DNA from: a virus
Direction: 5' to 3' (one strand)
DNA length: 43,412 nucleotides
Virus record (IMG/VR): IMGVR_UViG_3300013286_000019
Span: 1-43,412 of that record
In this document: piece after piece, positions 17,273 to 23,024 of the stretch
Layout of the letters: every line of letters starts with the position of its first letter
How positions within the stretch are numbered: the first letter of the stretch is position 1
The notes under the pieces: generated by a model
The model's database searches: none
Told to the model about the DNA's origin: nothing
The model's input: only the letters and a program-made list of their open reading frames with translations
Position numbers and translations under genes: made by a program

Positions 17273-19354
17273 TTATTTTGCCAATCCTGCTAGCTTCAAA
17301 ATGCTTTCCATTTCTGGAGATTTTTGTTCAGCTGGCATAATATTTTTATCAACTGGGCCTTGATCACCAATGCCTTCTACTTTAGTTTTGATATTGCCCA
17401 CTAGTTCTTTTAGTCTTGCCAAGCCATCATCACCGTGACTAGCTGATGCTTGTCCGTTGGCCACTTGACCGTGTTTCTGTTGCCATTCTTGTGTTAGCTT
17501 TTGAATAAATGCCTCTGCCATTTGGTGTGCCTGTTCGCCTGCTTCTTCTCCAAATTTTTCTGCAATTTGTTTCTTAACATCTAATGCGATGCCTTCTTCG
17601 CCGCGGAATGGACCAACTGTAGGATTGTCTCTGTTGTAGAAACTGCCAACAATTTTAGCAACTTCTTTGATCATAGATCCTTTGTCTTCGCCCATTGCAC
17701 CTGGAGGAGGAACCATATCTGTATTTTCATTTTGTCCCATGTGCTGTAGTTCGCTCATAGTGTCGCCAAGGAAGTCTTCACTGCTAATTAATGAACGAGC
17801 TTGGTTAGGACTCATGTTTAATTCTTTTACCAATGCCATGCCGATTGCTTTTACTAGTTCGCCTTCTTTTGCTGGATCGTAAGTGATGCCGTGGCTGAAT
17901 AGAAATTGTGCAACTTGATAGCTTGTTCTATCTTCTACGGCTTCCACTGTAGGTTGTCCTGCAGGTGCTTGTGTATTACTCATACCTAATGCTACCAATA
18001 GTTCTGGATAATTTTCATTTGCCCATAGTTGGAATACTTCGATGGGATCAGTTGTGCTGTCCAACTCTTTTGCCTGTTGAAATTTATTTTCCAAATTGTC
18101 ATCGTCTAAACCAAATTCACTGAAGAAACTATACGCTGTATCTAGATTTAATTGACCTTCTGGTAATTCTAATAATGCCTGCTTTAATGCTGCAATTTGA
18201 TCGTCTGCAAGTTTGCCTTGTTCAGTTGCCTCTGCCCAGTTTTCAAATGCGTCAAATGCGCTTTCTTTAACAGGAGAATCGCAGGCGCAAGGGTCTTCTT
18301 TGCAGTCTGGGCAGATGTCAGTTTCTTCACTAACATATGATTCAAGATCAACTTTGTTGGTCTCTCTCATGATGCTGTGTAGTAAGGGAAAGAAACCTGC
18401 TAGTTCTTCTTGGAATGTAGATTGTGTAAATTTCTGTTTGTATTCTTCCATAGTGACAGCATCAAGTTCCATGATGTCGTCGTCCATTGGGGCTTGTGCT
18501 CCTAGACCTTCTGCCCATGCTTCGTAATGATGACGCTTACCTAGTGCTTCAATTTGTGCTTTAAGTTCTTGTAGTCGGCCTACGGCCCTTTCTGTAATGC
18601 CTGTGGCGTCATCATGTAGGCTAGTCCGTTGAATTTTACGTTGGAATTCTTGTAGTTGAGCTATGTTTTCGCTCATTTTAATAATTGCTTTGCCTGCTTG
18701 ATCATGTGGGGCACCACCGTGATCTACGTGTTGTGCCATAGCAAATGCGCCTGCTGGGTGAATAAATGGATACTTAAACCGTTCACCGTCTCTGTTCTGA
18801 ATAAAAATTGCCTTGATATTGTTCTTCTGACTGCGGCTTCCAGCAAATGTTTCATCTACCGGTTTAGCGTGGCGAACAATAACTTCTGTGCTGCCTTTAA
18901 CTGCTCTACTGGTTTTCTTTGTACTCTTGTGGTTCCAGCGTGATTCGTTCATGTTCATAGTAGGTTCTTCCTTGGGGCCCTGTGTAGCGGCCAAATGTTG
19001 AAAATCGTTTTTGTCTAGATTTGTCTTTGCGATGTCGCGCGTATCAAATCTTAATAGTCTACGCATTGCAAAGTAGCGCATTTCCTTTAGGAAACTATAC
19101 CACATCTTCTTGGCCACATCGTCTTGATTTTCTGTAATACCCTGGCTGTAGTAAATCTTTAAACTGCCCAAATCATTTAAACTAATACTAACACGGCCTA
19201 GATCAGTGCCTTCCATTACGAAGTCAAAGTCAAAGAATCGTGCATCTGCAGGGTCAATAGTGACTGCACCGGCTTCGTCGCCCATTTCTAAATTGCTGAA
19301 ACGGCTACGAACCTTGTCGAATAAATCTTGGGAAATAATTTGGATAGCGTTCAT
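17273..19354 (-). CDS. Large unknown head-block protein, 693 aa
   Basis: Not recognised. The N-terminal 110 residues look globular (FFDFDFVMEGTDLGRVSISL, then MWYSFLKEMRYFAMRRLLRF). A second basic region (about 140-260) contains VKGSTEVIVRHAKPVDETF and FKYPFIHPAGAFAMAQHVDH. The rest is acidic, helical and low in complexity, with a Cys cluster CPDCKEDPCAC that may bind zinc. It ends in ESILKLAGLAK, a peptide shared with the protein two genes upstream. The start is ATG at 19354 (MNAIQIIS), since a longer frame to 19408 would overlap gp17; a late-type box overlaps the gp17 stop just before it. It is probably a virion or prohead-core protein, by position only. Confidence 0.65.
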   Translation of the reverse strand: MNAIQIISQDLFDKVRSRFSNLEMGDEAGAVTIDPADARFFDFDFVMEGTDLGRVSISLNDLGSLKIYYSQGITENQDDVAKKMWYSFLKEMRYFAMRRLLRFDTRDIAKTNLDKNDFQHLAATQGPKEEPTMNMNESRWNHKSTKKTSRAVKGSTEVIVRHAKPVDETFAGSRSQKNNIKAIFIQNRDGERFKYPFIHPAGAFAMAQHVDHGGAPHDQAGKAIIKMSENIAQLQEFQRKIQRTSLHDDATGITERAVGRLQELKAQIEALGKRHHYEAWAEGLGAQAPMDDDIMELDAVTMEEYKQKFTQSTFQEELAGFFPLLHSIMRETNKVDLESYVSEETDICPDCKEDPCACDSPVKESAFDAFENWAEATEQGKLADDQIAALKQALLELPEGQLNLDTAYSFFSEFGLDDDNLENKFQQAKELDSTTDPIEVFQLWANENYPELLVALGMSNTQAPAGQPTVEAVEDRTSYQVAQFLFSHGITYDPAKEGELVKAIGMALVKELNMSPNQARSLISSEDFLGDTMSELQHMGQNENTDMVPPPGAMGEDKGSMIKEVAKIVGSFYNRDNPTVGPFRGEEGIALDVKKQIAEKFGEEAGEQAHQMAEAFIQKLTQEWQQKHGQVANGQASASHGDDGLARLKELVGNIKTKVEGIGDQGPVDKNIMPAEQKSPEMESILKLAGLAK

Positions 19355-19360
19355 ATTCTT

Positions 19361-19368
19361 ATATTTAG
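19361..19368 (-). promoter_or_regulatory. Late-type box CTAAATAT 6 nt before ATG
   Basis: Minus-strand CTAAATAT followed by AAGAAT and the ATG at 19354; it includes the gp17 stop codon TAA. Nearly identical to the site before gp14 (CTAAATATAAGACTATG). No Shine-Dalgarno site is present. Confidence 0.5.
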
Positions 19369-20954
19369 TACGAACTAATGTATATGGGCATGGGTAAGTC
19401 GTGATCATCCATTCCCGTATGATCTCGCATCTTGTCGTAAATTGCAGGATCCCAGTCTTGCAATAGCATGACCATGCGTATAACTAATAATAATGCAGCT
19501 ACTAAATCGTCGTGCTGGCCTACTTTGGCTTTGAAAGTAATACCCTGTGCTACAAATGTTTTCAACTCGCTAACTAAAACTTTACTGTTAACTTTGATCT
19601 GTTTTGTTTCAATTAGCTGTTTAAGTTTAGCACAAGCTGATATTTTTGCGGCGTGTGTAGTGTTAAATCCCTTGCGGAACCGACGTACATGACCTTTCTT
19701 AATTGGCTCACTTAAGAACAATCCTGGGAATGTTTCTTCACCTAATTCGTTGATAGCTACCAGTGCAGCTTCGCCTAGAGTATTATTTTCCACGCTGTAA
19801 TAGATGTTAGGGGCAACACCCGCTGCCTGACATTTGTCGTCAATGTGTTTCAACAAGTCTCGCAAAATACGGGCCTGTGCCTGCACTGGGGTCATGTTGT
19901 GATGCCATTCGCACACTTGATCCATGCTAGGTAATTCTAATATTTCAATAGCAGCGTAGTCACCACCTGTGCCTAAACTAGGATCTAATGCCACAAGATA
20001 CATACTGTTGGGATTGATTCTCTTATACCACCTGGCCTGTCCCATCTTCATAGTGGGCTCACGCCCTTCCATATCAGAAAGGCTAATACTGTTGATCAAT
20101 GTTTCGTCAAAGATCAAGAATTCACATTCGTGTTCTCGCTGGAATCGTTCATATCCCACACGAGATACTTCTTCGTTTTTCCACTTTTCATCACGGTCTG
20201 GGTGCTCTGACCAAATGGCAATACAAGGATAGAATCCGTTACGGCCTAGTTCTTGAGCATTGCCGTGTTCGTCAAATCTCTTGTTAGCCTCGTTCCATAT
20301 TTGTGCAAACTGGTCTTCATCACTGTTAGGAGTTGATGTAATAATTGCCTTACCACCAGTTGCTAGTGTAGGCGAAATGGATGTCCAAAACTCTACGGCA
20401 ATGTTTGGTTCAACATAGGCAAACTCGTCGCAGTACAGCAAAGATACAGACATACCACGACCTGTTGTTTCAGTTGTTGTCTGTGCAACAATGCGTGATC
20501 CGTTGTCAAATTCTAAACTTTGTTTGTTGTAACTTGTAACACCAGCACGAATAAAGTCGGGACATGTTTCGTATGCATAACGCAGACGTTGCATAATTTC
20601 TTGAGCACCTGTGTATTTGTGCGCCGAGATAAGAATTGTACTATCAGGTACAAACATTGCGTACCATAGTAAATAGCCTACGGCTGTTGTGGTCTTTCCC
20701 ATCTGGCGCCCAAGCATATTTACACTGAAACGGTGTCCGTGATAGCTATCCAATAACCGCTTTTGGTATACAAATGGTTTGTATTGTATCTTACCTTTTG
20801 TGGGGTGTTGAATAAAGAAAAAGTTGTCTAAAAAGTATTCTGGACCGCTGATCATATCACTGCATTTGAGCATGTGCTCAACATCTTCGTCAGTCCAACG
20901 CTGTGTAGCGTTTGCTTTTTTAACTAAATTACCGTCTAAACTTCTTGTGGCCAT
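19365..20954 (-). CDS. 17: Terminase large subunit gp17
   Basis: A 529-residue packaging motor that pumps DNA into the prohead with its ATPase domain and cuts it with its nuclease domain. The Walker A motif is LGRQMGKT at residues 81-88, the variant typical of T4 gp17. SLLYCDEFAYV is Walker B with the catalytic Glu, and ITSTPN is the coupling motif. The RNase H-like nuclease has VALDPSLGTGGDYAAIEI with the metal-binding Asp, and a later HDDLVAALLL with the distal acidic residues. T4 gp17 is 610 aa, so this one lacks some terminal parts. ATG at 20954 has a late-type box just upstream. Confidence 0.95.
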   Translation of the reverse strand: MATRSLDGNLVKKANATQRWTDEDVEHMLKCSDMISGPEYFLDNFFFIQHPTKGKIQYKPFVYQKRLLDSYHGHRFSVNMLGRQMGKTTTAVGYLLWYAMFVPDSTILISAHKYTGAQEIMQRLRYAYETCPDFIRAGVTSYNKQSLEFDNGSRIVAQTTTETTGRGMSVSLLYCDEFAYVEPNIAVEFWTSISPTLATGGKAIITSTPNSDEDQFAQIWNEANKRFDEHGNAQELGRNGFYPCIAIWSEHPDRDEKWKNEEVSRVGYERFQREHECEFLIFDETLINSISLSDMEGREPTMKMGQARWYKRINPNSMYLVALDPSLGTGGDYAAIEILELPSMDQVCEWHHNMTPVQAQARILRDLLKHIDDKCQAAGVAPNIYYSVENNTLGEAALVAINELGEETFPGLFLSEPIKKGHVRRFRKGFNTTHAAKISACAKLKQLIETKQIKVNSKVLVSELKTFVAQGITFKAKVGQHDDLVAALLLVIRMVMLLQDWDPAIYDKMRDHTGMDDHDLPMPIYISSY

Positions 20955-20959
20955 AATCT

Positions 20960-20966
20960 TATTTAC
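20960..20966 (-). promoter_or_regulatory. Late-type box GTAAATA 5 nt before gp17 ATG
   Basis: Minus-strand GTAAATA, then AGATT and ATG at 20954. It follows directly on the T run of the upstream terminator, so gp17 needs its own promoter here, which supports the box as a real promoter. Confidence 0.5.
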
Positions 20967-20972
20967 TGAAAA

Positions 20973-20996
20973 AAATAGCCTCCGAAGAGGCTATTT
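20973..20996 (-). terminator. Strong intrinsic terminator with TTCG loop
   Basis: A perfect 10-bp stem AAATAGCCTC/GAGGCTATTT with a four-base loop. On the minus strand the loop reads TTCG closed by C and G, the stable tetraloop favoured in T4 terminators, and the stem runs into seven or more T. It ends the transcript of the acidic 307-aa gene, 19 bp after its stop. Confidence 0.92.
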
Positions 20997-21014
20997 GGAT
21001 TACATCCTAATGTA

Positions 21015-21938
21015 TTACTTTGTCAAACCAGCTAGTTTTAACATAGAATCAAATTCTTCGTTAGTTCTGTTGCTGGACCAAACTTTAGCACCAGACGATT
21101 TATTACGGTCATCAGTTGCCTTTTGAGCAGTGTCTTGGCTCTTTTCTTTTTGCTTGCGAATAAATGCAGGAACTTTGTCCATATCTGCACCTTCTTCCAT
21201 TTCTTCGTCGTCTTCAGCAGCTTCGTCCATTTCTTCTTCAGAAGATTCACCAATGAACTTTTTGTATTCTTTCATCAAGTTTTCAAATGTAGCTGTAGGC
21301 TGTGTTCCGATACGCTTCTTACCTTCTTCATCGTTGCCGCCACCTTGTGGGTTATCTTGTTTGGCAAAATTGTTGGAACCAAATGCTGGAGGTTTTGTAG
21401 GATCAGCAGGACTGTTGTCGTATTGACTTTCGTCTTCTGGCTCATCATCTTTCTCTGCATCGTGGTCGTCCATGTCGTGATCGCCGTCGCCGTCGATATC
21501 ACCGTGTGCTTTGCTAACACCGTCATCATCGCTACCAAACATACCACCTTGATCGTTGCCGCCTTCTTCATCACCGCCGTCTAATTCTGGATTCAATTTG
21601 TCGATTACAGAACGCATCATGTCGCTGTCAGTAGCAGCAGGTCCAACGGCTGTAACTGGTTCAGCAGTCATTACTGTTGGTTCAGGTTCCATGCCCAAGT
21701 GCTCTGGTTCTACTTTGTTCAAACCTGCTAGAGACATAATGTCTTTTAGCATACCGCTCAATTCTTCACCGCTAGCAGCAGTCATATTGATACTGGCAGG
21801 AGTGTTTGGAGCGCCGCCCATGCCGTCCATCATGCCCATTGGGCCGCATTCTGCTAGGTCTGCACCTTCTCTAACCATGTTAGGGTTTTTTGCATCTAGC
21901 TCAGCTAGGCGTTTCATTACGTCGATCATTTTCATCAT
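21015..21938 (-). CDS. Acidic, low-complexity head-internal or core protein candidate
   Basis: A 307-residue protein, very acidic and largely disordered. GDIDGDGDHDMDDHDAE in the middle resembles a calcium-binding Asp-rich loop of the EF-hand/dockerin/TSP3 kind. ATFENLMKEYKKFIGESSEE and a long Glu/Asp run follow. It ends in DSMLKLAGLTK, and an internal copy, MLKDIMSLAGLNK, lies near residue 65. The gene lies between gp16 and gp17, where T4 has none. The abundance of acidic residues and a helical segment suit a scaffold or packaged internal protein; this is inference. ATG-ATG at 21938 has AAGGAAAT upstream as Shine-Dalgarno and is 2 bp after the previous gene. Confidence 0.65.
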   Translation of the reverse strand: MMKMIDVMKRLAELDAKNPNMVREGADLAECGPMGMMDGMGGAPNTPASINMTAASGEELSGMLKDIMSLAGLNKVEPEHLGMEPEPTVMTAEPVTAVGPAATDSDMMRSVIDKLNPELDGGDEEGGNDQGGMFGSDDDGVSKAHGDIDGDGDHDMDDHDAEKDDEPEDESQYDNSPADPTKPPAFGSNNFAKQDNPQGGGNDEEGKKRIGTQPTATFENLMKEYKKFIGESSEEEMDEAAEDDEEMEEGADMDKVPAFIRKQKEKSQDTAQKATDDRNKSSGAKVWSSNRTNEEFDSMLKLAGLTK

Positions 21939-21940
21939 GA

Positions 21941-22534
21941 TTATTTCCTTGGGTCTTCTGCCAATTTTAATACACCACCTTGTGTATCTGATGGCGTATC
22001 GGTGCTATATTTTGCAGCACCCTCTGTTGGGATTTCTTCTCCGCGGGCTTTACGTTGTAACTTTAAAATGTCGTTTAATTCTTTAACAAATCCAGTATTG
22101 TATTTGTCTCCGTAGTAATCTTCAAATTGAGGATTGCCTGCTTCTTTGTAATCGGGATCATTTAACAAAGCTCCTTCGCGCTCAACAACAGGAGTTTGAT
22201 ATTCTTCACTTGGTTCGCCCGGGCGACGAACAACTAAATTCTGTTTGCTAACACCTAGTTCTGTTGCTAGGTATTCTGTAAGTTCTTGCTGTGTAGTTGG
22301 GTAATCTAATGTAACTTCATAGATACTAACTTCGCAATTCTTAACTTGTGGAAAATCTAAAGGAAGTGCTTGAATCGGAGTTTTAGCAGACCTTTTGAAT
22401 CCACTCATTGCATATCTGTCTAACAATGTTTTCATTGCTGCTTCTTGCTCTGTTGTGAAGTCACCGGCTACTTTAACACGGAAGTCATACTTCTTTGAAG
22501 ATTCGGAGAGGTATTCTTTGAATGTCTTGGTCAT
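21941..22534 (-). CDS. Hypothetical protein with capsid-targeting-like N-terminus
   Basis: A 197-residue protein, not recognised as a family. It starts MTKTFKEYLSESSKK, close to the T4 capsid-targeting sequence of internal proteins (MKTYQEFIAEA), which directs proteins into the prohead. A small alpha/beta domain follows (about 15-110, KYDFRVKVAGDFTTEQEAAM), then an acidic, flexible C-terminus with GGVLKLAEDPRK at the end. The ATG at 22534 is preceded by AATAAATA and has no Shine-Dalgarno site. A head-internal role is inferred from the N-terminus and the gp16-gp17 location. Confidence 0.6.
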   Translation of the reverse strand: MTKTFKEYLSESSKKYDFRVKVAGDFTTEQEAAMKTLLDRYAMSGFKRSAKTPIQALPLDFPQVKNCEVSIYEVTLDYPTTQQELTEYLATELGVSKQNLVVRRPGEPSEEYQTPVVEREGALLNDPDYKEAGNPQFEDYYGDKYNTGFVKELNDILKLQRKARGEEIPTEGAAKYSTDTPSDTQGGVLKLAEDPRK

Positions 22535-22538
22535 AGTG

Positions 22539-22546
22539 TATTTATT
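22539..22546 (-). promoter_or_regulatory. Late-type box AATAAATA 4 nt before ATG
   Basis: Minus-strand AATAAATA covering the gp16 stop codon, then CACT and the ATG at 22534. Part of the recurrent short-spacing set. Confidence 0.45.
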
Positions 22547-23024
22547 TATTCAGATTCTTTAGTTTTTCCAGGATGCTATTACGATCTGTTATAATATATC
22601 CCTGTCCCTCTACGGTTTCTGCACCTGTGTCGTTACCGTTTTTCTTGTCAATGGCCAACTTCTTTAACTGTAGATCGACCATTTTTAGCTTCTTATCAAT
22701 CTTGTTGGTCTTGGCTGTAATGGCTGCATTCATCATCTGTGCCGCAATTTCAAACATACGCGAACCATAACGTGGGTCAACGTTCATACCCAAGTCCATT
22801 AGATCGTCGTATGCTTGTTCTGCTTTACTAGCAAGCCCGTCTAATTCAGCATCACTAATGTCACCGAGGCCTTTTACACGGGGTAATGCTGCGGCAATCT
22901 TGTCAAATTCTTCTAACCTATCTTCTAAACTAATTGGTATAGTTTCTGTGGGAGTAGGCTCCGGAGCGATATAATCCGACTTATCGGGGGCGATATTTAA
23001 AACTTCTTCTAAACGTTTGGTCAT
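22542..23024 (-). CDS. 16: Terminase small subunit gp16
   Basis: A 160-residue protein with the T4 gp16 layout: a Pro/Glu-rich N-terminal part, a central coiled-coil pair (about residues 70-125; RMFEIAAQMMNAAITAKTNK, then MVDLQLKKLAIDKKN), and a short C-terminal segment after GYIITDRNSIL. T4 gp16 (164 aa) has the same order, including a segment with PRHMEVFATLMGQM that corresponds to PRYGSRMFEIAAQMM. It forms a ring that recognises DNA and controls gp17 ATPase and nuclease. It lies 8 bp after gp4. Confidence 0.8.
   Translation of the reverse strand: MTKRLEEVLNIAPDKSDYIAPEPTPTETIPISLEDRLEEFDKIAAALPRVKGLGDISDAELDGLASKAEQAYDDLMDLGMNVDPRYGSRMFEIAAQMMNAAITAKTNKIDKKLKMVDLQLKKLAIDKKNGNDTGAETVEGQGYIITDRNSILEKLKNLNK

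Follow-up and report, generated by a model that had tools for sequence, protein, structure and literature searches.

A C-terminal peptide common to two terminase-flanking proteins and the gp22 scaffold of giant T4-superfamily phages, a candidate prohead docking tail

This study deals with a short C-terminal peptide, LKLAGL, carried by two proteins encoded beside the gene of the terminase large subunit (TerL, gp17) in a virus record of 43,412 bp (IMG/VR record IMGVR_UViG_3300013286_000019), which we analysed at full length and call the window. The window is a fragment of a giant phage of the T4 superfamily, and its TerL is 55% identical to that of Pseudomonas phage PA5oct and 49% identical to those of Sinorhizobium phage Phosso and Agrobacterium phage Atu_ph07. 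The genes lie on the minus strand and follow, in the order of transcription, as tail tube genes, a gp4-like head closure gene, a gp16-like gene, a gene for a 197-amino-acid (aa) protein (protein C), one for a 307-aa protein (protein B), TerL, a gene for a 693-aa protein (protein A), and gp32-like and UvsX-like genes, the last two named by annotation of their orthologues. Throughout the text gp22 means the scaffold, and the motif scores are those of a position matrix described below. The features at the centre of the analysis are these:

17273..19354, minus strand: protein A, 693 aa, downstream neighbour of TerL; matches the virion structural family phrog_13484 (E 1.4e-7) and PA5oct gp278 (E 2e-18); orthologues begin at the same Met
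17276..17311, minus strand: C-terminal scaffold-tail motif of A, MESILKLAGL-AK; matrix score 16.2, the best of the window; retained in 60 of 68 relatives; modelled as a lone helix at the end of a disordered linker
19365..20954, minus strand: terminase large subunit gp17, 529 aa, between A and B
21015..21938, minus strand: protein B, 307 aa, acidic, upstream neighbour of TerL; matches in close relatives only
21018..21053, minus strand: C-terminal scaffold-tail motif of B, FDSMLKLAGL-TK; matrix score 15.8
21243..21269, minus strand: motif EYKKFIGES of B, consistent with the L/I-x-E rule for gp21-type cleavage (PMC9026906) and about 76 aa short of the C-terminus; a predicted site
21720..21749, minus strand: inner copy in B, LKDIMSLAGL; matrix score 14.6
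21897..21926, minus strand: N-terminal copy in B, IDVMKRLAEL, residues 5-14; matrix score 12.1

Protein A ends in PEMESILKLAGLAK and protein B in EEFDSMLKLAGLTK, and in six frames of the window these are the only C-termini with LKLAGL. B also holds the inner copy LKDIMSLAGLNK at residues 64-75, so that the sequence-only reading of this DNA, which had reported both tails and the inner copy, is borne out on these points, and the copy close to the N-terminus of B adds a fourth to its list. By blastp the match between A and B is confined to the 13-residue C-tail, which rules them out as paralogues, and in an all-against-all comparison of the C-termini of the window the score of the pair is 44, where the null maxima are 23-31. 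The six codons of LKLAGL read TTG AAG CTA GCA GGA TTG in A and TTA AAA CTA GCT GGT TTG in B, with synonymous differences at four of them; the tails are thus not encoded by identical DNA, as had been claimed, and the view that the peptide is under selection is upheld. Nor is the motif equally common at random C-termini, since it occurs within 8 residues of the C-terminus in just 2 of 1,275 other genes (one orthologous pair) from ten genomes or fragments, a frequency near that of shuffled sequences (0.00086 per gene). Protein B matched no Pfam or PHROG family, and tblastn of B against named phages matched nothing.

A third carrier appeared when genes ending in the motif were sought in one 322-kb relative, PA5oct and several large fragments. 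Beyond A and B, one family ends in this way, a protein of about 365 aa encoded between the gp21 protease and the capsid protein, in the gene order gp20, gp21, 363-aa protein, gp23 (Pfam: Portal_T4 3e-108, Peptidase_S77 4e-26, Gp23 7e-99). The protein is annotated as scaffold in phages 121Q, Munch, Muenster and MIJ3, and these neighbours and annotations identify it as the main scaffold at the gp22 position (phrog_10922); the place between gp21 and gp23 is held by the 363-aa protein and not by A or B. Its tail motif is present in 57 IMG/VR loci, in one of them shortened to KLAA, and varies among forms such as DIRKLAGLK, ELRRLAGIK and EILKLAGLRK. The closest relatives of the window have DNILDIRKLAGLK, and further off the tails read INDLKRLAGIKK (Atu_ph07), HELRRLAGIEK (Phosso), EELRRLAGIK (PA5oct), DRLTKIAGIRK (Vibrio phage 2.275) and DEIAKLSGMDKKR (GAP32). 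A conserved L/I-x-E site, of the kind recognised by T4 gp21, lies about 30 residues from the end of gp22, and the next residue is G or S in most cases. Comparison of A with gp22 by hhalign gives a probability of 1.6%, which rules out A as a gp22 paralogue, and A, B and gp22 share the motif without other homology seen, B and gp22 being compared by motif scan only.

A position matrix built from 12 gp22 tails only was run over all open reading frames (ORFs), which in the window amount to 13,574 positions. Its four best places there are the tail of A, the tail of B, the inner copy and the N-terminal copy of B, and the fifth scores 8.5. Since the tails of the matrix were chosen by prior recognition, matches in gp22 are circular, whereas those in A and B are not. 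Among the 548 ORFs of Phosso the two best places are gp22 and the tail of A. We also scanned a collection of about 2.9 million viral contigs for ORFs ending in LKLAGLxK (codons of L-K-L-A-G-L-x-K-stop, F allowed for L), which returned 80 loci, namely 39 A, 11 B (one of which, L373, adjoins gp32 and may be an A), 2 gp22 (a 528-aa scaffold ending EILKLAGLRK), 1 truncated A and 27 remaining loci, made up of 12 short or out-of-frame matches and 15 others. At least 81 ORFs end in RKLAGLK; among the matches listed, BLAST identifies 63 as gp22, another 14 lie beside gp21 and/or a capsid gene but cannot be recognised as gp22 from their sequence, and the rest comprise 1 A and 3 short or fragmentary ORFs. 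Across these scans the motif is nearly exclusive to gp22, A and B.

Two sets of proteins with such ends from other settings were observed in the collection. An E/K/P-rich protein of about 519 aa, ending DRLLKLAGFNK or DRILKLAGLNK, is encoded in L342 (2920-4479), L324, L355 and L376 beside a DNA polymerase (phrog_262); these viruses appear to form an unrelated group. On a 137-kb contig, L378 (11204-13588) encodes an acidic 794-aa protein that ends in MEAMLKLAGLRK and has two weaker inner copies.

The tail of A, kept in 60 of the 68 orthologues and changed six times or more along the TerL tree, stands out from the sequence before it: the last 12 columns have 62% majority residue and 98% occupancy, versus 40% and 74% in the preceding 120. 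The C-terminal copy of B has undergone at least three changes within the close clade. Leucine-rich short peptides arise easily and the copy of B comes and goes, as might be expected if the tail had been gained by chance, or by recombination with gp22, and copied on without a role. Against this stand the retention on A, the synonymous divergence of the codons between A and B, and a frequency of the motif at the C-tails of other genes that is near the shuffle level; because the tail is conserved, such neutral copying is already disfavoured and we hold it to be highly improbable. Concerning age, among the 14 proteins listed above at the gp22 position there is a marine clade whose TerL, where found (in G013 and G017), is about 30% identical. 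The acidic scaffolds of about 350 aa in this marine T4-like clade (L397, L414, L435) end in LNEGD.MANRLRKLAGLK and show no BLAST similarity to gp22. In relatives as far as this no motif was seen on the neighbours of TerL, though gp22 keeps the tail, suggesting that the use on the scaffold is probably the older one and that A and B borrowed it.

Other tails are found on the neighbours of TerL in some relatives. KKIAAAAMWKN ends protein B in L005 (8769-9941) and L008 (8559-9938), and a tail of this type, KRIAAAAMWKNIKR, ends protein A in L021 (11563-13974), another interchangeable C-tail. In more distant relatives (L054, L056, L057, L065, L077, L080) the tail GPRWKARYWSCRAW occurs on several different proteins upstream of TerL. 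Directly upstream of TerL in L525 (5621-6046, reverse strand) a 141-aa protein ends in LEALKKNAGVK, and two inner copies of the motif are present in the 819-aa protein next to it.

The homologues of A and B in PA5oct bear on where these proteins finally reside. The A homologue gp278 with an internal copy, gp281 at the B position with N-terminal and inner copies, and gp249 with an inner copy are all annotated as virion proteins by electrospray ionisation tandem mass spectrometry (ESI-MS/MS), and the gp22 of PA5oct (gp330) is not annotated as a virion protein. This is the pattern expected if gp22 is destroyed while A and B stay. In phAPEC6 the scaffold was detected by just 2 peptides, and the 48-kDa gp205, which adjoins the SSB gp204 and the RecA-like gp203, is a virion protein (PMC7247149); by our reading of the table in that paper, gp205 is at the place of A. 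The same annotations speak to the idea that the tail is an ssrA-like degradation signal limiting free A, B and gp22. A short hydrophobic C-terminus close to the stop codon would suit such a degron, which has an LAA-like end and needs a free C-terminus, but the motif ends in K, its copies in B are also N-terminal and inner, and the PA5oct homologues are stable virion proteins, so that we give this explanation almost no credence.

Structure prediction with AlphaFold2 places the tail of A in a helix (680-688) after a largely disordered stretch (632-678); in the gp22 model the tail is likewise helical (351-359), and the disordered stretch ahead of it (319-350) includes the protease site. By structure search the N-terminal half of A has no match in the PDB, and the matches of A among viral proteins are unnamed phage proteins, including the A of Atu_ph07, and one named as a large polyvalent protein-associated domain protein. 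No function for A was obtained in this way.

From these observations, we think it rather probable that in this branch of giant T4-superfamily phages the C-terminal helix LxxLxxLAGL is the docking tail of gp22 and that A and B reuse it for incorporation into the prohead core. Flexibly tethered, the gp22 tail would act as a docking helix, and its partner would also be engaged by the copies on A and B during prohead assembly. This partner would most likely be the capsid shell, on its inner face, or else another component of the core, a first guess made because scaffolds bind shells and gp22 is abundant; both the partner and the causal role of the tail in incorporation are candidate proposals. A and B would thereby join the core ahead of scaffold destruction by the protease and of DNA entry. 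The sequence-only reading had suggested docking or targeting to the prohead, portal or terminase, or a cleavage tag. Because the main scaffold carries the same motif at its end, the prohead part of this suggestion now ranks first among the explanations. A primary role in terminase docking finds no support, since the oldest and most constant carrier is the scaffold and not a terminase-linked protein.

The main alternative is that the tail binds portal or terminase, with A and B at the packaging vertex and gp22 starting the core there by the same contact. The encoding of A and B on either side of TerL would agree with this, as would the nucleation of the T4 core at the portal vertex. In phAPEC6, a relative, a rod of protein moreover runs along the portal axis (PMC7247149). 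However, gp32 and UvsX adjoin too, which makes the neighbourhood weak as evidence, and the 576 copies of gp22 in T4 versus 12 of the portal (PMC9026906) fit a contact with shell or core better; we regard this explanation as unlikely. Still more doubtful to us is a role as a maturation tag, in which the tail would bring proteins to the prohead protease gp21 by serving as its substrate or as a docking motif. The conserved site of gp22 shortly before its end and EYKKFIGE-S in B would both suit it, but in A no site is conserved near the tail, and the motif does not itself constitute a cleavage site. The lack of a conserved L/I-x-E site before the tail of A, together with the extra N-terminal and inner copies of B, also speaks against the earlier suggestion of a general cleavage tag.

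Several observations weigh against docking to the core through this tail. The tail is not strictly required on A or B, as it is lost in 8 of the 68 A orthologues and the copy of B has changed repeatedly. The copies on A and B of PA5oct are internal or N-terminal, and a free C-terminus is therefore not essential. The motif also stands at the end of a few unrelated viral proteins, those of the L342 group and L378. Confidence in the gp22 model is low (mean predicted local distance difference test, pLDDT, 58), and the window, being a fragment, is without a gp22 gene of its own, so that gp22 was read in relatives.

Comparison with known systems places the tail more precisely. In T4 the capsid targeting sequence (CTS) of IPI-III and Alt, which has an affinity for the core, brings internal proteins into the gp22 core (PMC9026906, PMC7411985). 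The likeness is that of a short peptide common to otherwise unrelated internal head proteins, here A, B and gp22. The T4 CTS, however, is N-terminal, has 10-19 residues, fits L/I-x-E and is removed by gp21, whereas the motif described here is C-terminal in A and B, with further inner and N-terminal copies in B, is the same as the tail of the scaffold, and has no cleavage site of its own, none adjoining it being conserved in A and that of B lying far from the end. In its working the tail would thus be analogous to a capsid targeting sequence, from which it differs in position and in cleavage. The gp22 of this branch resembles T4-type gp22 as the protein between gp21 and gp23, with the motif at its C-terminus in this branch. 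T4 gp22 ends in IVSVYAKVASRF and that of cyanophage P-RSM4 in MSKYVDALARWSK, neither tail being common to another protein of its genome; the motif was not found in the head genes of these two phages, which rules out a shared tail as a general T4 feature. The prohead protease gp245 of SPN3US has a C-terminal propeptide proposed to target the protein into the prohead core (PMC7411985), a likeness in position; it is a 64-residue propeptide of a protease and is removed by cleavage. In P22 a C-terminal helix-loop-helix of the scaffolding protein binds coat (PMC3185693). There the scaffold C-terminus is the shell-binding part, but its fold and size are different. We know of no use of the P22 coat-binding domain as a tag on separate internal proteins.

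Upstream of B lie three further features:

21941..22534, minus strand: protein C, 197 aa; phrog_14802, virion structural; its tail is not the motif
22499..22534, minus strand: N-terminus of C, MTKTFKEYLSES, resembling the T4 capsid targeting sequence MKTYQEFIAEA
22542..23024, minus strand: terminase small subunit-like protein (gp16), 160 aa; phrog_445, E 0.004

Protein C had been named as a third bearer of the peptide, which does not hold. Its tail, GGVLKLAEDPRK, falls below 8.0 in the motif matrix and outside the top matches of the window, and the tails of 16 orthologues also differ from the motif (SVLKQAADPRKK, SPIKQSDYDPRKK, SLLKFQAQDLRK, LSPISGKGK), so that C is ruled out as a member of the LKLAGL set. 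Its N-terminus, in contrast, fits F/Y-x-x-F/Y-I/L-x-E and is the sole such N-terminus among 51 ORFs in a scan that also picked up the T4 internal proteins. C with a CTS-like N-terminus is also found in L003, L007, L012 and others. The phage may therefore use a classical N-terminal signal alongside the scaffold-tail motif. As for TerL, L522 (2683-5259) has an 858-aa TerL ORF that matches the TerL of the window in two parts, at residues 1-91 and 71-529 of the latter; some 300 additional residues stand in frame between them, which suggests an intein or similar insertion.

In an open-access literature search limited to papers from 2024 on, mostly unrelated ones, the peptide was not mentioned. More tentatively, it is possible that adding LxxLKLAGLxK suffices for loading into the prohead core, and that the scaffold tail is ancestral and was borrowed, in various positions and copy numbers, by internal or ejected proteins. 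The last ten residues help to spot gp22 proteins of this branch that lack annotation, even where the scaffold has diverged too far for BLAST. The heads of giant phages hold dozens of proteins, and the selection of internal proteins into them is known mainly through the N-terminal signal of T4. If the proposal is true, internal proteins would be predictable from sequence, the gp22 tail would be a contact worth solving, and a C-terminal tag derived from the scaffold would be a second route into the head.

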